DNA of 64,000 nucleotides from contig OX419761.1 in assembly GCA_948567375.1 (NCBI GenBank), forward strand, positions 9,214,243 to 9,278,242, read 5' to 3'. Numbering within the stretch: position 1 is the first letter of the stretch; each line of letters begins with the position of its first letter. The position numbers and the translations under genes are program-made. A model generated the notes under the pieces. That model had not been told where the DNA came from. It ran no database searches and saw only the letters and a program-made list of their open reading frames with translations. This document shows, piece by piece, positions 21,601-64,000 of the stretch. The DNA comes from Lunularia cruciata. Taxonomy: Eukaryota; Streptophyta; Marchantiopsida; Lunulariales; Lunulariaceae.

Positions 21601-21659
21601 CTGAGTTACATGGTTGACTGACCATCTATTTTAGGGAAGGATGAGAAATATTAGCAGAA

Positions 21660-34729: not shown

Positions 34730-35023
34730 CCAATGAAGGAGCTTTTGCTCCATGTTGTTTGACCTTGGAATCTAGCCTGCAAATTTCTTAAGATTGATGC
34801 TAAAAGCATAGTTAATTACTTAGGCAGTTGCAAGCTTCAAAGATTTTGCAGCTGGCTAAGAACTACATATCAATCTCCTTTGAGTTGACTTTTGCTTTAT
34901 CCTAGTTTTGCTATTGAATGGAACCAAAGTCTTGATTCCAATCCTAAATAATGAGATGCATACCTTGATGGTCTAGTAGTATAAGATCATGGGTTTGTGA
35001 CCAAGGTCCAATTTGTCATGCGA

Positions 35024-38955: not shown

Positions 38956-39299
38956 TGGCTGCTACATTGGGCCCTTGGGAGCAATAGTGTCATGCACTCA
39001 ACCACCAGAGGTCCCAACCTCTGTGTGAAAAACTCCCTCCACTCTGACTACAAGCTACATACGTCCTCTGGCTACATCCCAAGTAGACCAAGGGTGTAAT
39101 CCAAGTAGACCACGCTCACCTAGATGGATTCCAAGTAGACCACTCTCCCTAGTAGCCATTGGTTGCATCCTAAGAATACCGTGTCCACTTGGTCCATCGT
39201 CCCCAACATGTGCTTGAATCATCTTGATAGGCACAAGGCTCACAAGTGTCTGAGTGGTGATGCCTATCAAGTGCATCCTATGCTATTCTACCAAGCCAA

Positions 39300-40265: not shown

Positions 40266-40499
40266 AAGCAATGAATGTGGTATCTAGAGGTGTCAAAGTA
40301 ATTGACTCCGGAGGCTCATCCTCACACTCATCTCCTAATGGTACGAAGGCTCCACTCCAAGCCTATTGCACCAACTGATCTGCATGTTGCTGCAATGCCT
40401 CCTTCAAACTCCACAATGGAACATCCAAGGTGGAGGGAACAAACGGTCCCATTCGTACTCCAGATCCAAGTGATCTTCTCTAGTATTGCAGTATCTTCT

Positions 40500-41010
40500 G
40501 CATGGGCATTCCCCTCCAACAAGTCACCAGGCCAAGTAACTGCACCATTGAAAGTTGAAACTGATGCTGCCATGGTCTGAACTGTAGTGAGCCAAGACTA
40601 CCACTATTAAAGCGTATTGGTAGGTGACATACTCATCCCTCACTAGACTGCCAACCTGGTTATAGGAAGCTATCTCTTCCCAATAGTCAATACTGAAGGC
40701 CATGGGATATAACATTACTCTCCCAATCAGCACATAATATGACTCAACTATTGTCATAATAGCCTGAGGTATCACCACTGAACTATCAATTGGTTGACCA
40801 GGCTGAACCTGGACAACAAGCTCCCCACGTGTGAGGTATTGTGTCAAACCACCACCTAGAGATGTCTAGATTTGAAATAGACACCTCTCCACATTGGTTT
40901 TCCACAACTCCAGACCAACTAATGCAGCCTTCCCCAACATAAGAGGCTGCGCACCAAAGTCTAACAAGACTCTTTGTGGTGTATAGACCTTCCCTGAAGG
41001 TCCCACCAAG
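40500..41010 (-). pseudogene. G1 protease tail, duplicated copy
   Basis: Corresponds to the C-terminal part of the protease and the protease-methyltransferase linker seen in G2 at 55,365-55,930 (QYLTRGELVVQVQPGQ, SYYVLIGRVMLYPM, IDYWEEIASY). The active-site region appears as RLWCAAS in a shifted frame, where the other copies have LLDFGAQPLML. It begins abruptly at the duplication junction 41,010/41,011. Confidence 0.75.
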
Positions 41011-41011
41011 C

Positions 41012-41890
41012 AATACATGCAATAGCCTCCACCTTGGTCTGCTGAACACCAAGTCCTCTGGGGTAGATAGTATGACTCAAATACTCAACCTGCTCGTAGA
41101 AGAACCTACACTTCCCAGGATGTAATTTGAGTCCATGAGATTTCAACCTCTCAAACACTTCCAACAACTATCTCTCATGCTCCTCCATAGCAGTGCTATA
41201 GACTAAAATGTCATCAATATAGCACTAAGCAAAATCCAATCCAACTAGGATCCTATCCATGACCCTCTGGAACTCAGTAGGAGCATTCTTTAACCCAAAT
41301 AGTAAGAACCTCTACTAATATAGCACATCCTTATTGTGAGGATCAATAGCCCAAAATTCTATCTTGGACTTATCCTCCTTGATTGGCAACTGATGATATC
41401 TTGCCCAAAGATCCAAAGTACTAAAGACCTTTGCATGCCAAATTGCATAAAAAATCTCCTCTAGTGTAGGCATGGCATACCAATTAACCTTAGTCTGTCA
41501 TTTGATAGGATGGTAATCTCCACACATTTTCCTATCTGTGTAGTTGCCATGCATATCCTTCTTGGTTGGCATCATTGTCACCAATGCATACTATCCATGT
41601 GAAATCTCCACCAAACCAGCCTCAAAAAGGTCACTACTCTAGCTTTGAATCAATGTCCCTTCCATGTCATTATAGCAATGAGGATGTCGGAAAACTGGTA
41701 TATCGCTAGTCAACTCAATCCTTATACCAAGTTCCTTCAAAGCACCAAAATCCTTCATATTGAAGGCAAAAAAACTCGTGTAGCTCCTCAAGAACCTCCA
41801 AACTCTCCGTCTTTCCTCTCTTGTAAGCTTCGGTCCAAGATATGGCTCCCAAGTATCCTCTATAACTGTTGCAAGAGTAGAAGACATACT
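41012..41890 (-). pseudogene. G1 reverse transcriptase, truncated duplicate
   Basis: Second copy of the RT from its N-region (TWEPYLGPKLTREERRRVW, 41,887 downward) to just after VEYLSHTIYPRGLGVQQTK, where it stops at the junction 41,011. The catalytic YIDD is present near 41,200-41,225, but the Trp two residues before it (AWCYIDD in the other copy) is a TAG stop. Confidence 0.85.
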
Positions 41891-42249
41891 GACTAGCTAC
41901 TACACTGGGCCCTTGGGAGCAGTATTGTCATGCCCTTGACCTCTAGAAGTTCCAACCTTTGTGTGTGAAACTCCCTCCACTCTAGCTGCAAGCTCCACAC
42001 GTCCTCTAGCTGCATCCCAAGTCGGCCAAGACTATAATACAAGTAGCCCACGCTCACCTAGATGGACTCCAAGTAGACCACTCTCCCTAGTAGCTAATGG
42101 TTGGGCCCAAAGAATACCATGTCCACCCGGTCCATCACCCCCAGCATGTGCCTAAATTGTCTCGATAGGCACAAGGCTCACAAGTGTCTGAGTGGTGATG
42201 CTTATCAAGCACATACTAAGCTGCTCTGCCAAACTAAGGCTCACAATCC

Positions 42250-43200
42250 AGGTCAAATAGTTTACATCCATAGCCTGACCTAACACCTAATGCTTGGATG
42301 CCTCTAATACTGTTGGAATAGCGGTAATACCAATTCAAAATAGCCCATAGCTCACTCTCTCTCATTGGCATTGGGCTCCACCAACTATTGTAACTATGAG
42401 TCCCAAACAAGTCCATGTCCTCCCTCTTGAAAAGCATGAGAGCTTGGGAAACTCATAAGTGTGGGAAAAGCGGCTCTAGGCTATCCAACTAGGTTCACCA
42501 TTGCCAAAGGTGACCTATCAACCACTACCAATGTCTGAGATTGACTTCCTACATCCAAGATGTCATCAACAAGGATGTGGTCTAGTTGTTGAATCCCATC
42601 ATATGCACGTTGTAGAACCTCTCTGGGTAAGAGGTTTGTCTACCAAAGACAAAGACAATAAGCCTATGATCCCACTCTGGTTGCATCTAACCATACAATA
42701 GGTCCTATCCAAGAATGGACCTAATGTGTACTTGCCACCACTTTGGTGTAAGAATCACCCATCAAAGGAACGTTCTCCAAAAGGTAAGCTCAAGAAATAG
42801 ACTGATGAACCTGGAGATGTCATAGTATCCGTAACATCTCCCAAAACACACTTGAACAAGGATCTTGAAGACCCAAACCTTGGCTAGCATGCGTATGTCC
42901 CTAACATGCCCATCCAAAAATCACCAAGTGAATAGGCCCATGTCTCTCTAGATCATGCACCCTCAATAAGAAAATGTCTACAGGTAAGGCCTTTTAGTAA
43001 CCTCTGACTACTGACATCGATAAAACCTCCGAATACCAATAGGCCAAGTGTGCCACATGATGTAGAGAGACTCACCTAGCAGTCTCATCTCTCTCCATTT
43101 ACAAGTACCTTTATACTCATATACTTGCTTGTAATACCGCAACTAGTCTAGTGCTAATCTCACCGAACAACTCCAATAGACATATCCACTCTACTAGATA
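42250..43200 (-). pseudogene. C5-cytosine DNA methyltransferase domain, G1 copy 2
   Basis: Aligns throughout with copy 1 and with the G2 copy. Motif I reads LLELFGEISTRL (about 43,145-43,180), with the last Gly of the loop changed to Arg. Motif IV reads FGWAC followed by a TAG stop, then GHTHAS (about 42,890-42,920). Motif VI is LLENVPLMGDS (about 42,765-42,785). Motif VIII survives as ATRVGS plus a stop. The target-recognition/IX part has EVLQRAYDGIQQLDHILVDD, SPLAMVNLVG and PRAAFPTLMSF. From motif I to ERE near 42,350 the reading frame is unbroken apart from stop codons, mainly TAG where a sister copy has CAG; a frameshift follows. Confidence 0.8.
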
Positions 43201-43571
43201 TGGTAAGCAATGAGTGTGGTATCCAAAGGTGTCAAAGTAATTGACTCTAGAGGCTCATCTTCACACTCATCTCTTGATGGTACGAAAGCTCCACTCCAAG
43301 GTTGTTGCACCAACTGATATGCATGTTGTTGCAATGCCTCCTTCAAACTCCACAATGGAACATCCAAGGTGGATGGAACAATCCCACTCGTACTCCAAAT
43401 TTGAGTGATCTCCTCTGGTAGTGGAGTATCCTCTACATAGGCATTCTCCTCCAACAAGACCAAGCCAAGAAATTGCACCACTAAAAGCTGAAATTGATGC
43501 CATTATGGTCCTGGACTGTAATGAGCCAAGATTGCCACTATTGAACCATACTAGTAGATGACATACTCGTC

Positions 43572-45526
43572 TGTGGTACCCACATTTTTCATTTTGGACG
43601 AGTTTTGAAGAAGAAGTGCCTTGCTAAAACCAAATTGAAACCAAATGGAGAAGAAATGAGAGGAAATTTGTATTTTGATCAAGCCTGAAGAAGTTGACTT
43701 TGTGTCAAATGAAGACGGACTCAGCCAAGATTGAAAGAGGGCAGACCCGAAGGAGGAATGGAAGTTACAGGTCAAGATTCTTGTGGGGGCTATATCTTAA
43801 TGTTCACAAGTCCAAATCAAACATGCTATATTTCGTTGGAAGCATCACGTTTAAGGCTTTCTGTTGGTACCAAAATCGCAAAGTTTGGAGGTCTATAGAA
43901 GAAGTTACAAGTATTTAAAGTTTGGGAGTAATTGTACAAAGTACTTTAGTGTCTTCGGGTTGGATCTTCGGTCTTGGGGTTGGATCTTCGGTCTTCGGGT
44001 TGGATCTTTGGACTTTGGATTGGCATCTTTGGACTTTGAGGTGGATATTTGGACTTCAGACTTCAGACTTTGGTCTTCGGATGTTGGACTTTGGGTTTAC
44101 ACAACTTCAAGTTAGAAGCTTCTTTGACTTAAGACAAAGACGACTGTATCTAAGATAGTTGGACCTCGGAGTGCAATGAAGATGAATTCGGGAATCTTGC
44201 CAGAGGCATTAGAGAGATTTAGGATAGAGAAAGAATAGATAGCTAGGATACCCATGACATCAATTTCAGTTCCGATTGAAGATGGAACAAGAATTGAAGG
44301 AGAAGTAGCAGTAGTGAATAAACCCAAAGTGCAAGATCAGATTGTAAGTATCTTCGGGTCAATAACATGAGTGATTAGGGGAAAGTGTGTTACAAATAGA
44401 AGGCGTAGATAGTGTACCCATGCTTTCAATTACAATTTGTGATGAGGATATAGTAGAATTAGCAAAGGAATTGATTGTAATTAGACCCAATGTTGCAGAA
44501 GTAGGAGTACAGGTGTCATCGGACTTGATAATTGACGCTTTAGAGAAGAGTGGGTCAGAAGATAAAGCAGTAGATGGAGTAACTCGGAGCTCAATTGAAG
44601 ATTGTAGTGAAGAAGTTGTAGAATTAGTAAAGAAATTAGTAGAATCAGTCATACCCGAAGAAGGTGAAATAGTAGGAAGATCATCGGGTTTGGAAGCCGA
44701 TGATGAAGTCGACATCGGATAGGGATAGAAGTCAATTCTAAGATAGGAAAGGGCAGATATGAAGAGATAGATTGTCACTTAGGATCTGTAGGTAGGAATA
44801 GATGTTAGGAAGCGGTGCCTAGGAAGGCAAGTCTGCCGTTTGCTTTAGTATTTAAGGGGAGCATTTGCAGTACGATGTTATTCAGTATTCAAATTTCTGA
44901 AGATAGATAAAGCGAAGTGCTGGTTTTAGTACTCGTCGCTTAAGCTTAATTCCGATTGTCAATTTCGTGTTTGTGTTTGTGAGTGTGTGGAGAATTCCAA
45001 AGAGCAAGTCAATGTGCTTGTGGATGTTGGAATCTGCAGCCTTGATCTTCATTCTGTGTGTTTGATCCTGAGTGAAGTGCATCGGAGCAATGCCTTGACA
45101 GATCTGAGAGGAATTGTAGTGTTGGTAGTATTCCGCATTGGTAAGTGCAGCACAAAGTTGATGTGAAGCAATTTTGATTGAGGAAGTTGTGCCTTCAGTG
45201 GAGGGGTGGAACACAATTCTGAGGCGAAATTGGTCTTTGCAGTGAAGTGCCGTCTTCGGGAGAATCTAAATCATCACAATCAAGAGTTGTTTGGACAGAA
45301 TTTACTATGTTGTGATTATGCGTGCGTATTGTGACAAGTTGTCAAGATTGTGAGCTTGTTACTCTCTTCTGGGTGTAGTTTCTACCTGAGAGATTAAAGA
45401 AGCAATCAAAAAGAACTGCAATTGTGACTTTTGACTTCGTATTTGACCAATTCTGGATCGTATCTCTGCGGGAACAAACTTTACTTACCCAATTATTGCA
45501 AAAGTGATATTTACCGGGTTGTCACA
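43572..45526 (+). mobile_element. Element E1 (solo-LTR-like insertion, 1,955 bp)
   Basis: It interrupts G1 between protease and methyltransferase. It starts TGTGGTACCCACATTTTT and ends GGGTTGTCACA, and is flanked by TCGTC (43,567-43,571) and TTGTC (45,527-45,531), a 5-bp target duplication with one change. The sister copies at 40,630 and 55,710 show the uninterrupted site. No direct terminal repeats were seen within it, so it behaves like a solo LTR or an unusual non-autonomous element. It contains an acidic ORF (44,387-44,722; e.g. EEVVELVKKLVESVIPEEGE) preceded by a related stretch with IARIPMTSISVPIEDGTRIE. A TTTAAGGGGAGC promoter-like sequence is at about 44,850. Confidence 0.8.
43955..44100. 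repeat. Minisatellite inside E1
   Basis: Imperfect units of about 20 bp based on GGTTGGATCTTCGGTCTT recur, degrading into TTTGGACTTTGGATTGG and GGACTTCAGACTTCAGAC phrases to the right. Confidence 0.75.
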
Positions 45527-45531
45527 TTGTC

Positions 45532-46335
45532 CCTCACCAGACTGCCAACCTAGTCTATAAGAGGTTATCTCCTCCCAATAGTCAATATTGAAACCCATGG
45601 GATACAACACTGCTCTCCCAACTAGCACATTGTATGACTTAGCTATTGTTGCAATAGCTTGAGCTCTCACCACCAAGCTATCAGTCAAATGACCGGGCTG
45701 AACTTGGACAATAAGCTCCCCATGTGTGATGTACTATGTCAAACCACCACCTAGAGATGTCTAGATCTAAAATGAACACCTCTCCACATTGGTCTTCCGT
45801 AATTCCAGATTGACTATTGTAGCCTTCTCCAACATAAGGGGCTGTGCACCAAAGTCTAACAAGACTCTTTGTGGTGTATATACCTTCCCTAAAGGTCCCA
45901 CCAAGTAGAAAATCTCCCTTTGGTTATCCGATAGGACAACATCAGGTGTGAACCGCACTCTCTCAAAGGCTGGTCTAGCTGGCAACTCCTCAAGTCCAAC
46001 CGCTGCTGCTTGCCATAAGCCACTGGTCCTTGAACGGATCCCATGCTCCTCAACAAAGTTAGCTCTATTATCAACCACCTTTGCTCTAGTAGTAGGAACC
46101 ACATCATCCCTACTCTCACAAAGCAATGTAGCCAACCAGAACACTAGGGTTGGGTCAACTCCCAATGTAAATATGTCATTGGCTGAAAACAAAGGGCACC
46201 GCATAATCAGCTGAGCGGCCCCCAACATTGTGCTAGACTCAATCTGTGTAGTAGCAAGTGGCTGACTAGTAGGTAGTCCAAAATGAACCCCATCACCACC
46301 TACCACACTTGCACTGGGACGTTTAGGAGTCATGG
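45532..46335 (-). pseudogene. G1 aspartic protease
   Basis: The main frame (46,333-45,767) contains ANDIFTLGVDPTLVFWLATL, then TPQRVLLDFGAQPLMLEKA. In this last segment D-F-G-A is in the position of the retroviral-type D-S/T-G-A active site. It continues below 45,700 with DSLVVRAQAIATIAKSYNV and NIDYWEEITSY. It is separated from its methyltransferase by the E1 insertion. Confidence 0.8.
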
Positions 46336-47885
46336 ATGTCGTCTACAATGCCTCAAATAACATGAAAGACTAGGGAAGTCTGACCTATCTCCCAACCTCT
46401 TCTCTTTGTGGGTCCAACTCCACTGATGCTGCTCTAGGCTCTAGAGAAGTCCAAAGCATCTCTATCACCAACATATGAGGTGGAAGCCTCAGCACCCAAA
46501 TCTGATCTCCTCTGGGCAATGGCCATACTAGCCAATCTCTACTCCAACTACTCAATCCGAGTAGCCATAGCTGTATGAGAAGTAAGGGCAAGTACTGCAC
46601 CTCTACTAGGTGTAGATCCTCTACCACCACCTCTACCTCCTCATCCTCCATGAACTAGAGCTCCTCTACTACCTACCACAACAGCCTACCACTCCATAAC
46701 TTTGGATGTAGGTCAAAGCACCGGTCACTAGTGAGACCAAATCTATGGCAATGCTCACATTGCTTCTATGCTGACTGTGATGCACCAGAGGTATCAGGTA
46801 TGCTGCCTTGAGTACACTCTCTCCTATGGTGAGGTCCACCACAAGTCCAACAAGCAACACTACCACTCAATGGCTATTGCTGACCTGAAAAGGAAGGTGA
46901 AGTTCTAGCTCCACTAGGCCTTCCACTCGCTCCATAGGATCTGGGCTATCCACCCTATCCTCAAAAATTAACTGGGTGTGGTACACTCTGCTGCACTCTA
47001 GAAGAAGTCACAACTATGGATGAGGTCTCATTACCAAATCCAGATGTCACCACCCTCTCCTCCACCACGTTGAGCTCAATATGCTCAGCCAAACCAAAGA
47101 CCACTACCAAAGTAGGCAAAGTAGCCTATAACAAAGTAGCGTCATGAACTCTACATTGCAACTTTTTGTCCAATATCCCATACCAAAACTAGATTGCTTG
47201 GGCCTTAGTAACTCCTTGAATGAAATTGATCAGCCATCTCATGCAAGTGTATGCCTTGCATAGGCTCTCTCCAGCCTTTGGTTGGAACTCTTGCAAGCTC
47301 CTCAACTTGTCAGTCCGCAGTCCCTGGTAGCTTTACCTCAAACACTAGAAGAACTCCACCATGGAGTTACCACACCACCTCCTGCAGTGGTACCTCCACT
47401 CATGGTAACACAATCCCTAGCTAGTGCACCTCCACTAGCTTCACCAACACTACTTGAGCTAGAACTTGTGGGTATAGCCGATCTACTCTTGGCAACCAAG
47501 CCTGAAGTGAGAGAGACATAGTTTGGAGATCAATACTATCTCCATAACTCAATCTCCTCCAAATGAGCTCTCTTGAACTCATGGTAGTCATCCATTGGCA
47601 GACCTTCCAAGTGTTGAAACAACCCTTTCCATGCCATGAAGGGTGTAAACAAAGTCAGGTTTTGCATTTGCTATAAATCACACCAACTATCAAACTCTTG
47701 GATGAAGTTATCCAACTCAATGGTACCCATTGTACTAGAGTAACGTCTAGGGCCTTTGGAAGTCCCATAAATCTTGTCATGTCTCACAACAACAATGTGG
47801 ATATACCAAACGCACTCTCAACTGAATCAGCTCTTGTGTCAAACTCCAACTCAGAGTCAATCTCCATCCTCAATGGGACCTGAGA
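46335..47885 (-). pseudogene. G1 gag with zinc knuckle
   Basis: Starts near MEIDSELEFDTRADS just inside the primer-binding site. The matrix/capsid-like part has FNT/FQHL..PP and LREFQ-type segments recognisable by comparison with G2. A first cysteine motif CWTCGGPHH is near 46,850, followed by a knuckle CEHCHRFGLTSDRC (about 46,720-46,765) in which the zinc-binding His is Leu; G2 keeps His. Many stops are present. Confidence 0.8.
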
Positions 47886-47891
47886 TACAAG

Positions 47892-47900
47892 CTGATACCA
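47892..47900 (-). promoter_or_regulatory. G1 primer-binding site
   Basis: TGGTATCAG on minus begins two bases inside the LTR end and matches the first nine bases of the initiator-Met tRNA complement. After that the match is lost (CTTG instead of AGCC). Confidence 0.6.
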
Positions 47901-47902
47901 AG

Positions 47903-49755
47903 CACCACTTCGAGTAAACCCATTGTGTGCTACGTGGCTAATTCCTCTAGAATCCCAAAAGAACTCCGTCGTGACAAAGTAACCGCAACTGCAACCGCAA
48001 ACTAGAACCACCAAATGAAACTGCAACCGCAAGTACTCAAACAAGTGCCAATACCCATAGAACACCACTCCCTAATGTTACTCTAACTGAGATCACTACA
48101 CTAGGAGAAAAGGCGATTTGTAACCTACCATCACAACACACACTCTCACGGTCTGCAAGTCATCACTTCCTGCCTCACCAAAGAGAAACAAAGGTAATCT
48201 GGCTGGTTATCATTCCAGCCTCACTACCGAGAGCACACTAGAGCACCAACGCTCTAAATTCAGTGCACCTCACACAAACATGGTGCACAAACAAGAAGTA
48301 GAGAATGGAGGAGGTCCAATCATAAGAAATCATATGAAAACCCTCTATCTTATGAAGCAACACGGGACTGACTCTATCACCATTTGGCATTTGACATAAG
48401 AGAAGTTTGTATCTACGTCCTAAGCTACCAAGATCACCAAGAATGGGATCAAACTGCCTCGCCTAGCCAAAGCTATAGGTGTATAGATAACAATAGCACA
48501 ATCACTAGGATAACAAAGTGAGGGTGGACCAGTTGGCTAGGGTACCAGTCTAGGAACAAGAGATCAATTTTGTCAAACCCTATTGCGCACAATCTAGCAA
48601 GATGGGTAGATTTTGCCAAACAATGACCAAGATCTACTCTAAACTAGCTAGCATCACGTCAGCAAGCTGGCTTGCTGGCCCTTCTAGGCCTTTGTAGCCT
48701 CTCATAGCCCACAACCCTATGCCCTAAAGCCTCTAAAAGCCAAATGAGGCCTTTCTTCTTGCCACTTTGAACCCTCTCCAAATTTGGCAAAACTTCTCCA
48801 AACTTGTGAAACTCCTCTAAATCTGGCCAATTAGCGAAACTCCTCCAAATCTGGCCAAAATTTGACGTTAACTCCAGCAAAACTCTTCCATAAAATTTGA
48901 CATAAACCCTAAAGTTGGTTGACTGCCACATCATCCACTAACTCTTAACTTGAGCCAAATTGAAAAAATAGGTTTCTCCAAATCATAAATTCACGGGGGT
49001 AGGTTCCCAACTCCACCTTCAATTTCACTTTCTGAGCCCAACTCGTAACAAATTGGTCATGTCTTCACCTCTTGAGCTCAAAATCACAACCATTGCTCAA
49101 AATTTGGTTCTTCTCTCCACAAAAATTGGCCAACACTTCTACACACCGTCTGCCTTATTGCCAAATCTGCATCAAGGAACGGGCTTTTGCACACCAAGGA
49201 AAAACTGAAGTTCAATCGAGCTACCAACGATCCACTGAGCTTGGAGATACCACCAACACTCAAAGATCCTGCACCTGATTTCCTCATGACTTGACTTCTT
49301 TGATGTAATCAAATTGTTTATAATTCTCAACTCAACTCAACTTAGATCAGTACTTGATCTATCACTCTATAAATTGCCAACAATTGGGCACTGATTATAG
49401 TCAAGCCACACCCACTCTAGGTAAGAGAATCCAGGTGACGCTTACTGGCCTCTATCCACCATAGATAGGAACTTGAAGGCTCAACATCAAAGAAGTGAGC
49501 TCTCTAGAGTTGCACTTTGAAAGCATACCCCTGGACTCGAGCTAGGTCTGGAACCCTAATGGTCCCGTTGACGGCACACTTGATGGTGCAAACGGTGCAA
49601 AGTGATAGTGGGCCTCACCATGAAGTCAAGACCACAAACACAAAATCTGACCATCGGAAAGTAGTCTATAAGTAATTGCTGAAATACCTCTGACTATTAT
49701 CACTGCAACTCCAATGTCCGAGCAATCTAGATGCGACACTACAAATGGCTTGACA
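47903..49755 (-). mobile_element. G1 5' LTR (1,853 bp)
   Basis: It aligns end to end with the G2 LTR at 51,419-53,276 (1,858 bp, opposite orientation). It starts TGTCA(C/A)GCCATTTGTAG. At its end G2 has CA, while here the base pair is changed to TG just before the primer-binding site. A possible TATA motif (TTTATAGAGTG) is near 49,365. Most ORFs in it are shadows. The ORF-like sequence near 49,072-49,278 is LTR, not a gene. Confidence 0.85.
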
Positions 49756-51418
49756 AGTTTCTTTCTAAAGTTTGGCAGCCTTGCTTAAGACTTTGTTTAC
49801 CTTGTTGGCCATTTTAGAGTCCTTACACCTCTCCTCCAACTCTGACCTATACTTTTTAACATATGCTTCCAAGCTCAAACAATCAATGGTAAGTCTTGTC
49901 AACTTACCTTGAGCTTGTTTAAAGTTGGTATGAGTATTGACCAACTTTGGTTTTTGTGCTAGTTGCTCTTGCCCATACATGTTCTTCCATTCTTTAACTA
50001 TCAAATGCAACTCTACATACTCAATTGAGATGTAGTATTATGTTCTTCAACAATCTGATGCAATTCTACATACTGAAATTGAGATGTCTTCTTCTATTCT
50101 TCAACCATCCGATGGAACTTTTACATTTTCAAATTGAGTCTTTGTGTAATACCAAGAGCTAACCATATGATCTAGATGTGAAATTTGGTTTGGTAACATC
50201 TAGAATGATGTTAAACATGATGGTCAAAATATATCAGATAGAAGTATCACCAAAAGAGTACTTCTACTAATAGGGCAAAAACCAAAATAGACTTGAAAAC
50301 CTTAGAATCAATAGCTAGACATATGATTTAAAGGTGAGAATTGGTTTGGTAACATCGGGAGGGACGTTACATATGATAGACTAAACAGATCAGAAAGAGG
50401 TATCACCAAGAGGGGACTTCTACTAATAGAGTAGGAACCAAAATATGCCTGAAATCTTTGAAGGCAATTTCAGAGGCCTAAACAGATGAATTAGACCTAA
50501 AAAATATACAACCCCCCCAATAGATGACAAGTTGGCCTTCCCTCCCCCTTGGTTTGTCTCGTCAATAACTTTCCAATGGTACCTTACCCACATGATTCTA
50601 CAATTCCTACAAGAAGATTTCCTAAAAGATTCCCTCCGGTCAAAGCTTGTTTGACCAAACCAGATAGGACCTAGACCTACATGTCACCCATCCAAGTAAG
50701 TAATCCAAGGGTGGAGCTTGCTGACATGTCACCTATCTGTGTGCTTAATCCTATGGTGGAGCTTCCTTGGAGGAGATCCTTTTTGTCTATATAATAAAGA
50801 GAAGCTCTTCTTTGGGGCATTGAATGTTTGAGTGTGAAATCTATATTTTCTCTTTTCTCTAGTCCTCAAAGTATTACAAATGTATCAGAGTGAGTGTTTT
50901 AGTCCAAGAGAGTGGATCAACCCTCTTGGAAGAGCACAAACTATTGAAATTGAGTAATTTGAGGTGAACATAGAGTAATTGCTAGACTTAGGTAAAACTT
51001 TAGAGAGCGGATGGGATGGATGCACCATGAGGACAATTTCTTGCACCTAGCTTTCCATGCTCAAATCCATCCCACATCAAGCTTATGTATATTCAACATG
51101 AGAAAATGAGGGTATCGCTAGTTTATCACTTTGGTGTAGAATTCATGGACAAGGTGATGAATTTACCAAACCTAGTGATTCTACTTGTGGTGATATATAA
51201 CAGAGAGTGGGATTTGACAATCTACATTCTATTATGATGGTATACATGTGAATGCCCCAAATCCTCTCCCTTTCAACACTCAAGTAGAAATCTGTTATAT
51301 AGTAAGACCGAAAGTGATGTTTAGAGATTTTGAAGTGGTTAGGAATTTTGGTGAGGAGTATTATTAATGAGTGATAGCTTCTGAGGTCCCAATAGTAGTT
51401 CCAATAGTTTGTGCACCT
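49756..51418. other. Spacer between head-to-head LTRs, with solo-LTR-like promoter and 156-bp repeat
   Basis: It contains a diverged direct repeat: TTGGTTTGGTAACATC at 50,185 and 50,341, with TATCACCAA and ACTTCTACTAATAG following in both. On plus, a promoter-like TCTATATAATAAAGAGAAGC (about 50,786) is followed by TCTCTTTTCTC, which resembles the R-region start of a plant LTR. An 81-codon minus-strand frame (49,765-50,010) is Lys/Glu-rich and may be a coiled-coil fragment (LEAYVKKYRSELEERCKDS). Nothing else is recognisable. Confidence 0.45.
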
Positions 51419-53276
51419 TGTCACGCCATTTGTAGTGTCGCATTTAGATTGCTTAAACACTAGAGTTGCAATGATAGTAGTTAGAGTTATTTCAACTGTT
51501 TCTCAGAGCCTATTTTCTGACGGTCAGATTTTGTGTTTGGGGTACTGACTTCACGGTGGGGCCCACCGTCACTTTGCACCATTTGCACCGTCAAGTGTGC
51601 AATCAGCAGGACCATTAGGGTTCAGACCTAGCTCGAGTCCAGGGGTTATACTTTGAAAGTGCAGCTCCAGAGAGCTCACTTCTTTGATGTTGAGCCTTTG
51701 AGTTCTTGGCTATGGTGGACAAAGGCCGACGAGCGTCACTTGGATTCTCTATGCTTGAGTGGATGTGGCTTGACTGTAATCAGTGCCTAGTTGTTGGCAG
51801 TTTATAGAGTGACAATCAAGTACGGATTTGAGTTGAGTTGAGTTGAGAGTGGTAAACAATTTGATTACATCAGAGAAGTGAAGTCAGGGGGAAATCGGGT
51901 ACAAGAACTTTGAGTGTTGGTGGTATCTCCAAGCTCGGTGATTGTTGGTAGCTCAATTCAAGTTCAACTTTTCCCTAGTGTGCAAAAGCTCATTTGATTG
52001 ATTGATTGATTGATGCAGATTTGGCAGTAAGGAAAACGGTGTGCGGAAGCGTTGGCCAATTTTTGAGCAAAGAAGGAGCAAATTTTGATCAATGGTTGTG
52101 ATTTTGAGCTCAAGAGGTGAAGGCATGACCAATTTGTTGTGAGTTGGGCTCAAAAAGTCAAATTGAAGGTGGAGTTGGGAAGCTATTCTCATGACTTTGT
52201 GACTTGTAGAAACCCGTGTTGTCAATTTGGCTTGAGTGGAAAGTTAGCGGGGGATTTGGTGAACAACCAACTTTAGGGTTTACGTCAGATTTTGGCTGGA
52301 TTTTACGTTAGATTTTGGCTAGATTTGGAGGAGTTTTGCTGTTTGGCCAGATTTGGAGGACTTTTCTAGTTTTGAGACCTCTTGCCAATTTTAGAGGAGG
52401 TTCCAAGTGACAAGAAGAAAGGCCTCATTTGGCTGAATTTTGGTGTTTAGAGGCTTCAAGGCATAGGGCTGTGGGCTATGAGAGGCTACGAAGGCCTAGA
52501 AGGGCCAACATGTTGGCGTGAGGCTAGCTAGTTTAGAGTAGATCTTGGTCATTGGTTGGCAAAATCTACCTTTCATGCTAGATTGTGCACAATAAGGTTT
52601 GACCCCTAGATCTCTTGCTCCTAGATTGGTGCCCTAGCCAACTTGTCCACCCTCACTTGTTGTCCTAGTGACTGTGCTACTATTATCTATACACATGTAG
52701 CTTTGGCTAGGAGAGGAAGTTTGATCCCATTCTTGGTGATCCTGGTAGCTTAGGACTTAGATACAAACTTCTTTTATGTCAAATGCCAAATGGTGGCAAA
52801 GTCAATCTCGTGTTGTTTTATGAGATGTAGGGATTTCTTGTGATTGGACCCCTTCTATTCTTTGCTTCCTGTTTGTGCACCACATTTGTGTGAGGTGCCT
52901 TGAATTTTGAGCATTGGTGCTCTGGTGTGCTCTCGGTAGTGAGGTTGGAGTGATGACTAGTCAGACTACCTTTGTATCTCTCCGGTGAGGCAGGAAGTGA
53001 TGACCTGCAGACCGTGAGAGTGTGTGTTATGATGGCAAGTTACAGGTTGCACTTTCCCCTAGTGGAGTTATCTTGGTTAGAGTTACATTAGTGTGTGGTG
53101 CTTAGTTGGTATTGGCACGTGGTGGTGTTGGCACTTGGTGGGGTACTTGTGGTTACAACTTGCGGTTGCAGTTGGTGGTTCTGGTTGCAGTTGTGGTTAC
53201 TTTGTCACGACGAAGTTCTTTGGGGATTCTAGAGGAGATAGCCCTATAGTACATAGTGGGTTTACTCAGAGTGGCA
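51419..53276 (+). mobile_element. G2 5' LTR (1,858 bp)
   Basis: Begins TGTCACGCCATTTGTAGTG and ends GGCA two bases before a TTGGTACTAGC primer-binding-like sequence (about 53,278-53,288). Same length and order as the G1 LTR but opposite orientation. A TTTATAGAGTG TATA-like motif is near 51,811. A (GATT)n-like run (TTGATTGATTGATTGATTG) is at about 51,995. Confidence 0.85.
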
Positions 53277-53305: not shown

Positions 53306-54856
53306 GTGAGGGAGGAGATTGATTCTAAGTTGGAGTTTGACACAGGAGCTGATTCAATTCAAAGTGCACTTGGTGTGTCCGCACCGTTGTTGTGGGACAT
53401 GGATGAGATTTATATGGCTTCCAAAGGCCCTAGACATTACTCTAGTATGGTGGGTACCATTGAGTTGGATGACTTCATCCAAGAGTTTGATAGTTGGTCT
53501 GATATGCAGTAGATGCGGAACCCGACTTTGTTCACACCTTTCATGGTATGGAAGGGGTTGTTTCAACATCTGGAGGGTCCACCAATGGACAAAAACCATG
53601 AGTTTAGGAGAGCTCATTTGGAGGAGATCTAGTTATGGGGACAATATTGGTCTCTGAGCTATATCTTTATCACTTCAGGTTTGGTGGCCAGGAGTAGATT
53701 GGTTGTACCTATGAGTTCTAGCTCAAGTAGTGTTAGTAGAGCTAGTGGAGGTGCACTAGCTGGAGATAGTGCTACTACAAGTGGAGGTACCACTGTAGGA
53801 AGTGGTGTGGTACTGGAGTTTAACCTAATGGTGGAGTTCTTCCTGTGTTTGAGGCAGAACTACTAGGGAGTGCGGAATGATAAGCTGAGTGGCTTGTAGG
53901 AGTTCCAGCAAAAGGCTAGAGAGAGCCTATGTGAGACATACACTCACATGAGGCGGTTGATCAGTTTCACTTAGGGAGTTAATGAGGCCCAAGCAGTCCA
54001 GTTTTGGTATAGGATACTGGACAAGGAGTTGCAACATAGAGTTTGTGATGCTACATTGTTGTAGGCTACTTTGTCCACTTTGGCAGTGGTCTTTGGTTTG
54101 GCTGAGCGTATTGAGCTCAACATGGTGGAAGAGAGAGTGGATACATCTGGATTTGGTAGGGAGATCTTGTCCACGATTGTGACTTCTTCTAGAGTGCAAT
54201 AGAGTGCACCATGCCCAGTTGGTTTTGAGGACAGGATGGATAGCCCAGATCCTATGGAGCAAGTGGAGGGCCTAGTGGAGTTAGACTCTTACCTTCATTT
54301 TTGGGTCAGTAGTAGTCAGTGAGTAGTCGTGTTGCTTGTTGGACTTGTGGTGGACCTCACCATTAGAGAGAGTTCTCAAAGCAGTGGACCTGATACCTCG
54401 GGTGCATCACAACCAACACAGAAACAATGTGAGCATTGCCACAGATTTGGTCACACTAGTGATCGGTGTTTTGACCTACACCCAAAGTGACGGAGTGGTA
54501 GGGTTGCTATGGCAGGTAGTAGAGGAGCTCTTGGAGGACGAGGTGATAGAGGTGGTGGTAGAGGATCTACACCTAGTAGGGGTGCAGTACCTGCTCTTAC
54601 TTCTGATACAGCTATGGCTACTCGGATTGAGTAGTTGGAGCAGAGATTGGCTAGTATGGCTATTGCTCAGAGGAGATCAGATTTGGGTGCTGAGGCTTCC
54701 ACCTCATATGCTAGTGATAGAGATGCTTTGGACTTCATGTGCAGAGCAACACAGGTGGATGCATCTGCAGCAGTGACTAGGAGTGCAATACATGCTCTAG
54801 GGCCTAGAGGAGCATCAGTGGAGTTGGATCCACAAAGAGGAGAGGTTGGGAGATAG
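53306..54856 (+). pseudogene. G2 gag with CCHC zinc knuckle
   Basis: One frame from MREEIDSKLEFDTGADS. It passes LDDFIQEFDSW, the gag signature region WKGLFQHLEGPPMD, a Ser/Gly-rich linker, VEFFLCLRQNY, LCETYTHMRRLIS and FGLAERIELNMVEE. Two Cys clusters follow: CWTCGGPHH and a canonical knuckle CEHCHRFGHTSDRC near 54,440-54,480 (C-x2-C-x4-H-x4-C intact). Next is an RGGRG-like basic/Gly tail and a helix LEQRLASMAIAQRR. Stops are TAG at 53,510 and 53,864 where CAG is expected (G1 has CAG at the second site), plus others. Confidence 0.85.
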
Positions 54857-54877: not shown

Positions 54878-55700
54878 ATGCTATTTGAGGCATTGCAGAT
54901 GACATCCATGCTTCCTAGACGTCCCAGTGCAAGTGTGGTAGGTGGTGAGAGAGTGCATGATGGACTACTTGCTAGTCAGCCACCTACTACTACACAGACT
55001 AAGTCTAGCACGATGTTGGGGGCGGCTCAGCTGATTATGCAGCATCCTTTGTTTTTGGCCAGTGATATGTTTACATTGGGAGCTGACCCAACCCTAGTAT
55101 TTCAGTTGGCTGCCACGATGTATGAGAGTAGGGATGGTGCAGTTCCTACTACTAGAGCAGAGGTGGTTGGTAGTGGAGCTGACTTGGTTGAGGAGTATGG
55201 GATCCGTTCAGCAACCAGTGGTTTGTGGCAAGTAGTAGTGACTAGACTGGAGGAGTTGCCAACTAGACTGACCTTTGAGAGAGCACAATTTACACATGGT
55301 GTTGTCCTATTGGATAACCAAAGGGGGATTTTCTGTTTGGTGCAACCTTCAGAGAAGGTCTATACACCATAGAGAGCCTTGTTAGACTTTGGTACGCAGC
55401 CCCTTATGTTGGGGAAGGCTGCAGTTGTTGGTCTGGAGTTATGGAAGACCAATGTGGAGAGGTGTCCATTTCAGATCCAAACATCTCTAGATGGTGGTTC
55501 GACACAATACATCACACATGGGAAGCTTGTTGTCCAAGTTCAGCCTGGTCATCTGACTGATAGCTTGGTGGTGAGAGCTCAGGCTATTGCGACAATAGTT
55601 GAGTCACATGATGTGCTAGTTGGGGGAGTAGTGTTATATCCTACGGGTTTCAACATTAACTATTGGGAGGAGACAACCTCCTATGGACCTAGTTGGCAGT
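54878..55700 (+). pseudogene. G2 aspartic protease
   Basis: Preceded by a linker with LGAAQLIMQHPLFLASD and LGADPTLVFQLA. The protease core starts near 55,373: RALLDFGTQPLMLGKAAV, with D-F-G-T in the active-site position. It continues with SLVVRAQAIATIVESHDVLV, then VVLYPTGFNINYWEE. Same frame as gag, so gag-pro-methyltransferase was one polyprotein. One stop immediately precedes the core (CCA TAG AGA, where G1 has CCA CAA AGA). Confidence 0.8.
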
Positions 55701-55769
55701 CTGGTGAGGGACGGGTATGTCGCCTACCAAAATGCTTCAATAGTGGTAGTCTTGGCTCACTATGGTTCG

Positions 55770-56995
55770 AGACCATGGCAACATCAGTTTTAGCTTTTAG
55801 TGGTGCAATTACTTGGCCTAGTGACTTGTTGGAGGGGAACGCCCATGCAAAGGATACTCCAGTACCAGAAGAGATCACTCAAGTTTGGAGTACGAGTAGG
55901 ATTGTTCAATCCACCTTGGATGTTCCATTGTGGTAGCATGCAAATCAGTTGGTGCAACAGGCTTGGAGTGGAGCCTTCGTACCATTAGGAGATGAGTGTG
56001 AGGATGAGCCGCCAGAGTCACTTACTTTGACACCTCTAGATACCACACTCATTGCTTGGTAGTATTGAGTAGAGGGGATATGCCTATTGGAGTTGTCTGG
56101 TGGGATCAGCACCGGACTAGTTCCGGTATTACAGGCGAGTATACGAGTATAGAGGTACTTGTATGTACAAAGAGATGAGACTGCTAGGCGAGTCTCTCTA
56201 TATCATATGGCACACTTGGCCTATCTTTATCCAAAGTTATTACCAATGTCAGCAGTCAAAGGTTACCAAAAGACCCTACCCGTAGACATTTCCTTACAGG
56301 GGCGCATGATCTGGAGAGACATGGGCCTATTCACTTGGTGATTTCTCAATGGCCATGTCCGGGACATACACGTGTTGGTAGAGGTTTGGGTCTTCAGGTT
56401 CCTCATTCTGGTGTGTTTTGGGAGATGTTACGGATACTACAACATGTCCAGGTTCATCAGTCCGTTTCTGCAGCTTACCTTTTGGAGAACGTTCCTTTGA
56501 TGGGTGATTCTTGCACCAGAGTGGTGACAAGTACACATCAGATCCATTCTTGGATGGGACCTGCTGTATTGTTAGATGCAGCCTAAGTGGGATCACGGGC
56601 TCATCGCCTTTGTCTTTGGTGGATGAACCTCTTCCCAGAGAGGTTCTACAACGTGCTTATGATGGGATTCAATGACTTGACTACATCCTTGTTGATGATA
56701 TCTTGGATGTTGGGCGTCAGTGTAAGACAGTGGTAGTGGCTGATAGGCCATCTTTGGCAGTGGTGAACCTAGTTGGACAGCCTAGAGCCGCATTTCCCAC
56801 ACTCATGAGTTTCTCGGGCCCTCATGCTTTTTGAGAGGGAGGACCTAGACTTGTTTCGGACTCACAATTATAGCAGTTGGTGGAGCCCAATGCTTATGAG
56901 AGAGAGCGGGCAATGGGTTTTTGTACCGGTATTACCGCTGTTCTAGCAGTGTAAGAGGCATCTAGGTTTCAGGTGTTAGGTCAGGCTATGATCTT
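55770..56995 (+). pseudogene. C5-cytosine DNA methyltransferase domain of G2
   Basis: After an acidic linker (ITWPSDLLEGNAHAKDTPVP, then LTLTPLDTTLIAW) comes motif I, LLELSGGISTGLVP (about 56,080-56,122), and RYLYVQRDETARR. Motif IV is HLVISQWPCPGHTRVGRG (about 56,330-56,385) with the Pro-Cys catalytic pair intact, then SGVFWEMLRIL. Motif VI is YLLENVPLMGDS (about 56,475-56,510). Motif VIII is VLLDAA-stop-VGSRAHRLCLWWMNLF (about 56,570-56,632). The recognition/IX part has RPSLAVVNLVGQPRAAFPT. Motif X includes ERERAMGFCTGITA and EASRFQVLGQAM (about 56,905-56,990). This set and order match DNMT3-like enzymes that transfer methyl from S-adenosyl-methionine to cytosine C5. It is disabled by two 1-base deletions and several stops. 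Confidence 0.85.
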
Positions 56996-57712
56996 AAACT
57001 TGTTTGTGAAGAAGAGGGATGATGCAATACGTATTTGCATTGACTATCAGGGTCTCAATTAGCAAACAATGAAGAACAAATACCCCTTACCTTGCATGGA
57101 TGATCTATTTGATCAACTCCATGGAGCAAGATACTTCACCAAATTGGACTTGCAGAGCGGTTACAATCAAATCCAAATTACAGAGGAAGATATGTACAAA
57201 ATTGCCTTTTGAACCAAGTATGACCACTTTGAGTATCTTGTGATGCCTTTTGGCCTCACCAATGCACCTACCACTTTCATGAGTCTAATGAATGGCATAT
57301 TTTGTCCATGCTTGGATAAGTCTATTATTGTCTTCTTGGACAACATCTTAGTATATAGTAGTACAATGACGGAACATAAATAACATCTACAAGAGGTCCT
57401 CCAAATTCTAAGACAGAATCAATTGTATGCCAAAATCTCAACGTGCGAGTTTGGCAAGTTTGAAGTAGACTACTTGGGGCATAGAGTAACTTTAGAGGGC
57501 ATTCAAGTATTGACGGATAAAATAGAGGTCATCAAAAAATGGAGTGCCCCAAAAGATCAGACTGAAGTCAAGAGCTTCTTGGGGTTGATAGGATTCTATC
57601 TTAGATTTATCAAGACTTCTCTAAGGTTACACAACCTTTACCAACACTACTTGGCAAGGGGAAGAAGTGAACATGGAGAATCACACAAGAGTTGGCCTTT
57701 CAAGAATTGAAA
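56996..57712 (+). pseudogene. G2 reverse transcriptase of a second gypsy lineage
   Basis: Starts abruptly with LFVKKRDDAIRICIDYQGLN in the same frame as the methyltransferase end. The usual upstream segment (x-P-[WY]-x-x-P-[IV]) is missing. It continues [32 protein letters not shown] and [18 protein letters not shown]. The catalytic box is FLDNILVYS (FLDN instead of [FY]xDD, so the second Asp is lost). CEFGKFEVDYLGHRVT, VIKKWSAPKDQTEVKSFLGL and FYLRFIK follow. The motif style differs from the G1 RT (WCYIDD, FWAI) and resembles chromovirus-type elements. Confidence 0.85.
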
Positions 57713-58338
57713 GCCGCCTTGCTACATGCACCAATCTTGAAGTGGTATGACCCAAAATGTCCAATCAAGTTGGCTACAAATGCATCAGGCATAGCAATAG
57801 GAGCAGTCCTACAACAAGAGTAGCATGACGGATGACATCCAATTGCATATTTCTCTCAAAAGTTGTTACCGATAGAGCACAACTACCACACCATAGAATG
57901 AGAAGAGCTGGCCATCATTTTGGCAACCAAGCATTGGAAGCACTATCTGGGCAAGAAGCAGTTGTAGTAGAGACTGACCCCAAACCTCTAGTCTACCTCA
58001 ATATGCAAAAGGATCTATCTTGTCGCCAGATTTGGTGGGCAGAGTGGCAACAATGCTTTAACATGACAATCACCTACATGGAAGGTAAGAAGCAACTTGA
58101 AGATGCATTCACCTGCATGCCAATGGCAAACAACTTGGTGGTAGAAGTTAAGATTAACCCTAAATTTTGGCCAAAGATTTGGGCTGCTACAAAAATTGAC
58201 CCACAGATTGTAGAAGCGCAATCATTTAAAGGCGTCACCAACATCCAAGAACTCACCTTTGGTGATGGTAGATTATGGATCCCAAATGTCCCAGAATTAC
58301 ACACCACTATTCTAGCAGAATGTCATGATTTGGCCATT
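57713..58338 (+). pseudogene. G2 RNase H and integrase start
   Basis: RNase H reads LLHAPILKWYDP, then LATNASGIAIGAVLQQ (Asn replaces the first catalytic Asp), HPIAYFSQKL, ELAIILATKHWKHYL and, in a shifted frame, ITYMEGKKQLEDAFTCMP. The integrase zinc-finger start is ILAECHDLAICG, cut by E2 at 58,338/58,339. Confidence 0.8.
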
Positions 58339-61352: not shown

Positions 61353-62497
61353 CTAAGTTTTCACTTTGTCCTCAAAGTGAAGGCCTCTCTTCCTTCTATG
61401 GTGCATCTTCAACTTATCATGGTTAATCCTATCAAAGTGTCTTCCTCTCAACTCCTTGAGATCATAGGTGTTATTGCCCCACACCTTCTCTACTATGAAA
61501 GGTCCAAAGTACTTAGGCAAAAACTTCTTTTGCACTCTCTTGAATCGAATGGAATCAAACAACATTACCTAATCACCTTCTTTGAAAGGCTCCACCTTCT
61601 TCTTGCCTTGCCTCTTGTCATAGCTCTCCTTTTGTTTCCTTTGGGCTTGCTCCACTCAAACCATAGCAACTGCTCTTGCCTCTTCCAACTCCATGAGTTG
61701 ATCCTTCCTTGACTTCTCTGCATCACCTCCTTGTGCTTTCTTCAATCTCCTATGAATGCTTTGGAAGGTCAGAAGATCAAAGTGAATAGACTGAATACCA
61801 TACACCAATTGAAATGGAGTTTATCCGGTGGAAGTCTTTATGGTTGTCCTATACTCCCACAAAACTGCATGAATTCTCTTGTCCCAATGATGTTTAGCCC
61901 CCTCCATTTCTGCATCTTTGGCGAACATCATGCACAAGGTCTGATTGGTTCTCTCTGCCAAGCCATTGGAATTTGGCTTATAGGATGTAGTTACTCTATG
62001 TGTGATAGAGAAATGTCGTAGCATGGCTGTAGTAATGCTTCTTGTAAACTCTCCTCCTCTATCAAAAACCAACTCCAAAGGGCATCCAAACCTAGTGATA
62101 ATGCGTTCATAAAGAAATCTACCCACTTCATCTTCATTCTTGTCCCTCAATGGTCTAGCCTCAACCCACTTGGTAAGGTAATCAGTAACTACCACAATGT
62201 ACCAATTGTTCCTTGGGGTTCTATTGAGAGGACCTACAAAATCAATCCCCCACTTCTCAAAAGGTCCTAGCAATGGAATTGATCTAAGTGGTGGAGTGGA
62301 TGTAGACTTTCTAGCAAAAGCTTGACAAACATGACAAGTTTTGCAATAATCAAGACAATCCTTGAAAATCCCTCTCCAATGGTAACCTGCATCTAGAATC
62401 TTAAAAGCAGTCACCTTTCTTGCAAAGTGTCCTCCACATACTAAACCTTCATGAAACTCCTTTATGAGTAGGATAGACTCTTCCTTACCCACTTCTC
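61353..62497 (-). pseudogene. Element D integrase
   Basis: The H2C2 zinc domain is HEGLVCGGHFARK ... CKTCHVCQAF. The catalytic core has D in WGIDFVGPLNR, D in LVFDRGGEFT and E in NGLAERTNQTL, so all three are present. The C-terminal domain reads FKRVQKKFLPKYFGPFIVEK and ends just before the purine tract; no chromodomain is visible. The stop-codon remnants are consistent with single substitutions (for example TPFQLVYG follows a TAA). Confidence 0.85.
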
Positions 62498-62498
62498 T

Positions 62499-63293
62499 TC
62501 AAAGTAGACCATCTGCTCCTTGGTGAAAAAGAATATCCTCCACCATTGTGTAAGGTCTAGATCTTGCTGCAAGGGCCTTCCTCTCCCTAGCATGCATCCC
62601 TTCTAGATAGTTACCTCTTGTCACAAAATCCACAATCTCCTTGTACTCCATTGGAACCTCTTGAGTGATTGAGATTGTCATGAGCTCCTCATCCGGGAAG
62701 GAATCATCCACTGGCTCATCTTCATCATGATCATAGGCTCTAGATAACAAATCAGCATTTGCATGTTTCTTTCCTGGCCTATCCTCAATGGTGTAGTCAT
62801 ACTTAGACAAGAGTATCATCCACCTTGCTAGTCTCCCTTCAACATTATGCTTGTTAAACATGTACTTCGAAGCCTTGTGATCCATGACAATGGTGGCTTT
62901 CCCTCCAATCAAGTAGTGTCTAAACTTCTTGAGACCAAAGATCACTGCCAACCCTTCTCTCTTCGTGACAGAGTATTTCTTCTTTGCTGAAACCATCTGC
63001 CTACTAGCATAAGCTATTGGATGATCATGCCTATCTTGGTCTAATTGACTAAGAGTGCATCCTATAGCTACATTAGAAGCATCAGTGTAGAGGATGAAAG
63101 GCTTACTCCAATCAAGTTTAGCAAGAATTGGAGCTACAACAAGGGATTGCTTGAGCTCCTCAAAAGCTTTGAGAGCCTCCTTGTCCTCCAAAATCACCAT
63201 GTAATCTACACCCTTCTTCATGTAGATGGTCAATGCATAAGCCTTGTTGGAAAATGAGAAGATGAACCTCCTATAGTATCCAACCATCCCCAA
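62499..63293 (-). pseudogene. Element D RNase H and connection
   Basis: Begins GMVGYYRRFIFSFSNKA (RT thumb/connection). RNase H follows: PFILYTDASNVAIGCTLSQ, HPIAYASRQMVSAKKKYSVT, EGLAVIFGLKKFRHYL, MDHKASKYMF and, at the end, DYTIEDRPGKKHANADLLSR. The catalytic Asp of TDAS and Glu of REGLA are present. Uninterrupted across 264 codons. Confidence 0.88.
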
Positions 63294-63296
63294 GAA

Positions 63297-64000
63297 TTAG
63301 CGTAACTTTGTCAAGCTTGAAGGGAATGGAAGGTCTGAGATTTTCCTCACCTTCTCAGGATCAACTACTATTCCATCCTTGGAGATGATGTGCCCAAAAA
63401 GTAGACCTTCTTCACATCCAAAAATGCACTTCTCTGGGTTGAGTGATGCATTTGCCTCATCCAAGCATTGCAAGACTTTGATTAGGTGCTCAAAGTGCTC
63501 CTCCTTGCTTCCATAGACACAAAAGTCATCAATGAAGTATCTCACAAATTTCCCAATGAAAGATTCAAATACCTTGTTCATGAACCGTTGGAATGTGGCT
63601 GGAGCATTGCAAAGCCCAAAAGGCATGACCTTGAAAGCGTTAGTTCCCCAAGGTGTGGTGAATGTGGTGAGTTGTTGATGCTCTGGTGCAATCTTGATTT
63701 GGTTATATCCACTATAACCATCTCCAAAACTGTACCTCTCATGACCTGCAACCTCCTCCAAGATCTCATCAATGAATGGCAATGGGTAGTAGTCCTTCTT
63801 GGTAACAGCATTGAGCTTCTTGTAATCCACACATACCCGAATCTTGCCATTATTTTTCTTCACAATGACAATTGGAGACACCCATTCTGAATTCTCTACC
63901 TCAAAGATAAATCCAGCCTCCTTGAGCTTATCAATCTCCTCCTTCACAACCAAAGATATTGGTGGGCTAATGCGACATTGTTTTTGGCGGATTGGTCTTG
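63297..64000 (-). pseudogene. Element D reverse transcriptase, N-part cut by window end
   Basis: Reads EEIDKLKEAGFIFEV, VSPIVIVKKNNGKIRVCVDY, YYPLPFIDEILEEVAG, MPFGLCNAPATFQRFMNKVF, then the catalytic box YFIDDFCVYG (both Asp retained) and LLFGHIISKDGI. The frame stays open upstream of 63,953 to the window end (PIRQKQCRI), so the polyprotein continues outside. Confidence 0.88.

Follow-up and report, generated by a model that had tools for sequence, protein, structure and literature searches.

A Ty3/gypsy retrotransposon family of the liverwort Lunularia cruciata with a DNMT3-type methyltransferase ahead of a conserved UAG and a PHD finger after its integrase

We analysed a stretch of 64,000 nucleotides from the genome of the liverwort Lunularia cruciata (contig OX419761.1, positions 9,214,243 to 9,278,242; hereafter the window) and the assembly that contains it. 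It is as good as certain that this genome carries a family of Ty3/gypsy retrotransposons with a DNMT3-type cytosine methyltransferase (MTase). The layout of the family is LTR-[Gag-protease-DNMT3-type MTase]-UAG-[RT-RNase H-integrase-PHD finger]-LTR, where LTR stands for long terminal repeat and RT for reverse transcriptase. An initial annotation of the window had proposed that a land-plant Ty3/gypsy element carries a DNMT3-type enzyme between protease and RT, and the genome supports this: protease, MTase, RT, RNase H, integrase, and PHD finger follow one another in this order in 20 of 20 copies read at full length, and gag was found in 18 of them.

The genome search covered 565.8 Mb in 74 contigs. 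The PF00145 profile scored at least 123 places out of 2161 candidates, a few of them host genes, and the domain of an intact relative (protein P0001) matched at least 123 places out of 12,864 candidates at 73–75% identity. Among the 123 places listed for the P0001 domain, the match spans residues 1–326 in 122 and 1–325 in one. Of these 123 matches 71 are stop-free by a checked hand count, with listed frames of up to 1448 residues. The 20 copies mentioned above were hand-picked across the PF00145 list and each read at about 10 kb; being chosen through their MTase, they do not count copies that lack it. Direct LTR pairs are present in 16 of the 20 (88.2–99.8% identical; 97% or more in nine). The family thus includes recent insertions, and some of its copies in the liverwort genome are young. 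The L. cruciata genome, estimated at 581 Mb, is described as swollen by gypsy bursts in the available part of PMC9985172.

The window itself holds three copies of the MTase domain, all decayed, as established by tblastn with homologues and by self-comparison; we call them A (plus strand), B, and C (both minus strand). Only copy A had been noticed before; B (42,245–43,200) and C (39,315–40,284) are additional. All seven motifs reported for copy A (LLELSGGISTG, WPCPGH, FWEML, LLENVP, VGSRAHRL, ERERAMGF, and QVLGQAM) are present in that order, spread over three forward frames. The domain had been placed at 55,770–56,995; it exists, but its proper extent is about 56,051–56,999, which the P0001 domain covers in three tblastn pieces (E-values 1e–28 to 3e–43), and the preceding part (55,770–56,050) is a protease-to-MTase linker. 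Control tblastn searches gave a best E-value of 1.9 for the reversed window and 3.6 for 20 chunk-shuffles of 35,001–58,500. The PF00145 profile, suggested earlier as a check, is weak on the single-frame piece of copy A (E-value 0.042, below the cut-off), and a PDB search with single-frame pieces of this copy returned no DNMT at a significant E-value. However, a three-frame reading of the domain, with X at stops, retrieved 32 proteins at E-value ≤ 1e–3, the best at 4.9e–112 with 63% identity. The named proteins among these 32 come from Marchantia polymorpha, Calypogeia fissa, Sphagnum troendelagicum, and Sphagnum fallax, and we take the remaining ones (sources lgn, jgi, and ena) as environmental. 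An alignment search added Marchantia paleacea, Riccia sorocarpa, and Sphagnum tenellum among the 120 listed of 197; no Klebsormidium nitens sequence is named among the same 120. One Marchantia protein, P0005, joins PF00145 with RT and RNase H.

That the enzyme is of DNMT3 rather than DRM type, as had been proposed, is supported by the order of its motifs, by the ranking of profiles, and by its fold. In a ten-sequence alignment motifs I to X of the element MTase are unpermuted, with no trace of the circular permutation of DRM enzymes, and P and C of motif IV and E, N, and V of motif VI are invariant. Of the 31 host copies with an indel-free MTase, all retain PC and all retain ENV; PCQ is present in 30, and in the remaining one PC is followed by a stop. 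DNMT3A is the best match, ahead of the RNA enzyme DNMT2 (2.5e–5). The scanned element proteins gave no Pfam match to ADD or PWWP domains; we therefore speak of a DNMT3-type domain and do not claim an orthologue of the animal gene.

In a 57-row tree the window MTase copies group with Riccia sorocarpa P0143 (97/89). The enclosing clade of 27 rows (100/99) holds every named bryophyte row of the tree save Calypogeia P0124. The element MTases form one clade (100/99) apart from a host DNMT3-like exon and DNMT3A. Across lineages, P0021 and P0004 are 49% identical in the MTase, 48% in the protease, and 23% in gag, and neither linker flanking the MTase matches; RT-RNase H identity between P0005 and contig locus L007 (CADCWO010000201.1) is 60%. 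Proteins P0031, P0085, and P0088 make a separate clade (100/100), and the start of P0085 resembles an RNase H end by eye. P0032 has half a domain and sits with P0124 on a long branch in another part of the tree; in this protein the MTase is followed by an integrase (H2C2, rve). A second lineage may thus place its MTase between RNase H and integrase. Among host exons classified by eye, L009 and L012 are DNMT3-like, L010 is a permuted DRM, and L011 is a CMT. Six loci with short MTase matches in viral contigs and one Streptomyces locus (L008, in genome contigs) were set aside. L007 is filed in a Synechococcales metagenome-assembled genome, a cyanobacterial bin, and P0042, a related MTase 51% identical to P0001, is filed under Candidatus Obscuribacterales. 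Both are probably mis-binned eukaryotic DNA, in the case of L007 because it is a retroelement.

The MTase had been described as part of an RT-bearing polyprotein. The order of domains stands, but the MTase closes the Gag-protease frame (up to 1428 codons) and RT starts after an in-frame stop. We located this stop with a 21-base probe in 40 copies (L017–L056). It is TAG in all 40, and CAR-YYA comes next in 39 (CAGCAA in L038). UAG-CAR-YYA is the leaky stop context of plant viruses. The UAG lies 114 codons past the domain. It shares the MTase frame in all 31 copies whose MTase is free of indels, and the RT frame in 30 of the 31 whose RT is free of them; an independent pattern scan recovered the signal in 19 of the first 20 copies. 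On the L007 contig both frames, Gag-protease-MTase and RT-RNase H-integrase-PHD, are open, and TAG-CAA-TCA joins them in frame. Among 45 listed relatives with most of the domain, 28 end 65–124 residues past it, 13 end sooner, and four (P0005, P0009, P0013, and P0030) run on further, with contig ends and gene models influencing these end positions. Expression through a leaky stop is, as predicted from these sequences, very likely. Lying in the Gag-protease frame before the UAG, the MTase should therefore be made at Gag level.

The second frame ends in a PHD finger. By Pfam, the L007 frame has the order RT, RNase H, integrase, and no chromodomain is listed for it. The finger shows the Cys4-His-Cys3 zinc pattern and matches the PF00628 profile (6.7e–11 in window copy C and 4.3e–10 in L007). 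Its nearest solved relatives include the PHD fingers of PHF12, CHD4, KMT2D, DPF3, KDM5, and UHRF1.

Sequence variation among the host copies shows signs of what may be constraint on the MTase. Changes shared by at least two of the 31 indel-free copies have a nonsynonymous to synonymous ratio of 46/39 = 1.18 versus 2.50 expected (P-value 0.0007), where the expectation is taken from the copies' own context-biased singleton spectrum. MTase singletons fit that spectrum (81/38 = 2.13, P-value 0.42). For shared changes in other domains the P-values are 0.081 (protease), 0.1 (RT), and 0.42 (integrase). Mean pairwise dN/dS is 0.40 for the MTase, 0.34 for protease, 0.33 for RT, 0.56 for integrase, and 0.45 for the PHD finger. 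The copies also bear a C-to-T scar. In the three window copies it affects 21/120 CG, 49/246 CHG, and 67/1353 CHH sites; in the 31 host copies the counts of base-sites are 122/2015, 193/3782, and 87/9641, respectively. The observed/expected ratio of CpG is 0.28–0.29 for the elements, compared with 0.41 for the window and 0.83 for a stretch of it with a cytochrome P450. The scar in CG and CHG, together with the low CpG ratio, indicates that the elements have probably been methylated in both contexts.

Overall, the best explanation joins the family, the leaky stop, and marking of complementary DNA (cDNA); as a compromise over the whole we give it a somewhat better than even chance. The leaky UAG would leave the MTase at Gag level while a minor share of ribosomes went on to RT, integrase, and PHD finger. 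The MTase would be packaged with Gag into the particle and would create 5-methylcytosine, either in the newly made double-stranded cDNA or in the DNA where the element inserts. The PHD finger of the integrase would read the histone H3 tail and steer insertion, and the element would arrive already marked and stay quiet in silent chromatin. The cDNA-marking role by itself is plausible from the sequences, if short of an even chance. Put together, and more tentatively, a bryophyte (and probably soil-organism) lineage may keep a writer-reader pair of Gag-level DNMT3 and integrase PHD finger: it would methylate itself before or at insertion, choose chromatin through the PHD finger, and arrive pre-silenced, with a high-copy burst and DNMT3-type methylation beyond host control as the outcome.

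A number of observations weigh against this explanation. The selection test uses 31 copies with a neutral spectrum drawn from their own singletons, and a direct Fisher test of shared versus singleton changes gives a P-value of 0.057. RT singletons also depart from the spectrum (P-value 0.023), and the PHD finger is without constraint in the same test (8 nonsynonymous and 3 synonymous shared changes, P-value 1.0). Stops are present in 20 of the 31 indel-free MTases, leaving 11 stop-free in the 40-copy sample; the window copies are dead, and motif IV of B and C reads WAC instead of WPC. The C-to-T scar points to methylation and is silent on whether host or element is its source, and a DNMT3 acting on CG only would not explain the CHG part. 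A DNMT3 is not something that the element RNA has to carry: none was seen on other gypsy elements, for example at 61,821–63,926, though no systematic search was made. Finally, the domain of KnitGypsy-Dnmt3, a charophyte relative from Klebsormidium nitens, did not methylate DNA in yeast according to the available text of de Mendoza et al. 2018 (PMC5890265). Its authors call this test inconclusive because human DNMT3B failed too. Two SymbioDIRS domains in the same paper methylate CG in yeast.

Several alternatives assign the MTase another role. It may tune the element down by methylating its own LTRs or other copies in the nucleus, limiting copy number and harm and so helping element and host persist. 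The strong CG and CHG scar on the 31 copies fits such self-limitation, and a related idea appears in the Discussion of PMC5890265 as far as that text is available; yet at least 123 places and LTR pairs up to 99.8% identical look unrestrained, and the CHG marks suggest a host chromomethylase; a CMT exon (L011, named by eye) is present in the genome. We consider this role unlikely. About equally unlikely is that the MTase shields cDNA from a host nuclease or sensor that targets unmethylated DNA, or opens or closes insertion sites in trans on chromatin. The Gag-side position would mean many enzyme copies per particle, which favours such roles, but we know of no host sensor of unmethylated DNA in liverworts, which counts against shielding. 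Ideas similar to these are found in the same Discussion (PMC5890265).

A decidedly more doubtful alternative is that the domain keeps its fold but binds nucleic acid or plays a structural role within Gag, or has RNA rather than DNA as its methylation substrate. The WAC common to copies B and C and the charophyte yeast result (PMC5890265, in its available part) speak for it. Against it stand the PC and ENV residues, retained in 31 of 31 host copies, the invariance of P, C, E, N, and V in the ten-sequence alignment, and the best match to DNMT3A rather than DNMT2. That the motifs arose by chance in decaying sequence, or that a transposon landed in a host DNMT gene, could be suspected from the insignificant single-frame pieces in Pfam and PDB but is already refuted by the 4.9e–112 match, the at least 123 genomic places, the empty shuffled and reversed controls, and the clade apart from host DNMT3-like exon and DNMT3A.

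The three window copies belong to one truncated chimeric element (A) and one element with an internal duplication (B/C). On the plus strand, copy A begins with a 5' LTR of about 450 bp at 51,418–51,870 (79.8% identity to 35,121–35,566), followed by a decayed gag region at 53,399–54,736 (tblastn with Marchantia P0003), both within an 82.5% alignment to 46,446–49,757. A retropepsin-like protease (LLDFGTQPLML) lies at 55,334–55,712, detected with P0001 and P0005 and homologous to the corresponding regions of B and C; the linker and the three-frame MTase described above complete its own part. The RT that the initial annotation placed after this domain is present (RT/RNase H, 57,006–57,964, RVT_1 5.5e–29) but belongs to a different gypsy lineage, because it is 30–36% identical to RTs of the DNMT family, including those of B and C; it is 38% identical to another gypsy element in the window. 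By eye, the joint falls in a short shared stretch, AACT(T)GTTTG. A template switch seems less favoured as the origin of this chimera, since a 5' LTR of the DNMT family's type better fits a simple later join.

The B/C element lies on the minus strand between a 5' LTR at 49,303–49,761 and a 3' LTR at 35,121–35,571, which are direct repeats. Their identity of only 79.4% marks an old insertion. Its gag is at 46,688–47,778 (tblastn with P0003, 48–65% identity). A partial tandem duplication of protease-MTase-RT (41,006–45,905) produced copies B and C, which are 85% identical, and about 2 kb of other sequence (43,572–45,528) lies inside the first unit, copy B. Copy B comprises a protease region (45,488–46,207, tblastn with P0001), the MTase (tblastn E-values 8e–98 and 3e–6), TAG TAG at the position of the conserved UAG (41,897–41,902, hand-counted), and a partial RT (41,006–41,851), where the duplicated segment stops according to tblastn and self-comparison. 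Copy C starts the second unit with a protease (40,659–41,018; same methods) and continues with the MTase (9e–80 and 3e–31), TAG-CAG-CCA at 38,956–38,964, which separates MTase from RT and is in register with the RT linker, and RT at 37,998–38,835 (47–67% identity to RTs of L007 and P0005 by tblastn). This TAG, in the UAG-CAR-YYA context, is by eye the sole stop common to B and C in that stretch. RNase H (37,415–37,699, 62% identity to P0005 by tblastn), the integrase core (36,538–36,978; rve PF00665 2.6e–13 on 36,625–36,978, with a P0030 match), and the PHD finger (35,848–35,982; PDB PHD fingers from 8.1e–13) follow. In none of seven comparisons among the three window copies are third positions enriched for changes, and in one (MTase of A versus C, P-value 0.04) they are depleted; these copies are therefore fossils, unfit for reading selection. 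By eye, no primer-binding site adjoining an LTR was recognised. A 104-base repeat (89%) flanks the 3' LTR (35,016–35,119 and 35,570–35,673), with no such match listed beside the 5' LTR. The window also contains, all on the minus strand, the other gypsy element (RT, RNase H, and integrase; 61,821–63,926, about 30% identical to the DNMT-family RT), open frames of a copia-type polyprotein by eye (20,371–22,257), and a cytochrome P450 in two open pieces (25,156–27,071), the N-terminal one 75% identical to MpCYP824A1 of Marchantia.

In the open-licence literature, as far as its texts were accessible, we found neither a liverwort or moss gypsy element described as carrying a DNMT nor a plant gypsy integrase described as bearing a PHD finger. 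As far as the literature searched shows, the kind of element is already known; what is new is the range of hosts, the position on the Gag side combined with a leaky UAG, and the accompanying PHD finger. How a retrotransposon benefits from a DNA methyltransferase, its own silencing mark, is left open in the Discussion of PMC5890265, in the part available. The present family may be able to place on DNA, perhaps that of the element itself, the very mark by which plants silence such elements. A related family occurs in land plants including the model Marchantia polymorpha, where the evidence is annotated proteins only. Since its catalytic residues are conserved, a PHD finger accompanies the enzyme, and the stop signal predicts dosage, the question of benefit becomes testable in a tractable plant. 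Work on liverwort methylomes is also affected: for M. polymorpha five methyltransferases of three host classes have been counted (PMC5784723), and the accessible part of that paper does not mention element-borne ones in its count.

In agreement with the initial annotation, retrotransposon DNMTs are on record from charophytes and dinoflagellates, namely in Klebsormidium Gypsy-Dnmt3 and in dinoflagellate DIRS and LINE elements (PMC5890265). According to the available text of that paper, KnitGypsy-Dnmt3 resembles the Lunularia family as a gypsy element with an unpermuted, intron-less DNMT3-type domain under purifying selection (Ka/Ks < 0.2). However, its DNMT lies inside the Pol polyprotein frame, whereas the Lunularia MTase ends the Gag-protease frame before the UAG (read-through would still join MTase to RT in a long product), and its repeats are arranged as in DIRS, while the Lunularia LTRs are ordinary direct repeats. 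The Lunularia family also has a PHD finger after the integrase; the main text of PMC5890265, in the form available, is without the words PHD, readthrough, and protease. SymbioDIRS-Dnmt3 and SymbioLINE-Dnmt of dinoflagellates are likewise retrotransposon-borne (PMC5890265, same text) but belong to other classes, DIRS with tyrosine recombinase or LINE. Metazoan DNMT3A/3B provide the closest solved catalytic domain by sequence and fold; unlike them, the scanned element proteins show no ADD or PWWP match, and the PHD finger sits on the integrase, beyond the UAG. Plant DRM enzymes share the DNMT3-related catalytic domain but in circularly permuted form, as in host exon L010 (by eye). Chromoviruses are gypsy elements with a chromodomain at the integrase C-terminus. 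They and the Lunularia family both have a chromatin-reading module at this position, which in the Lunularia family is a PHD finger.
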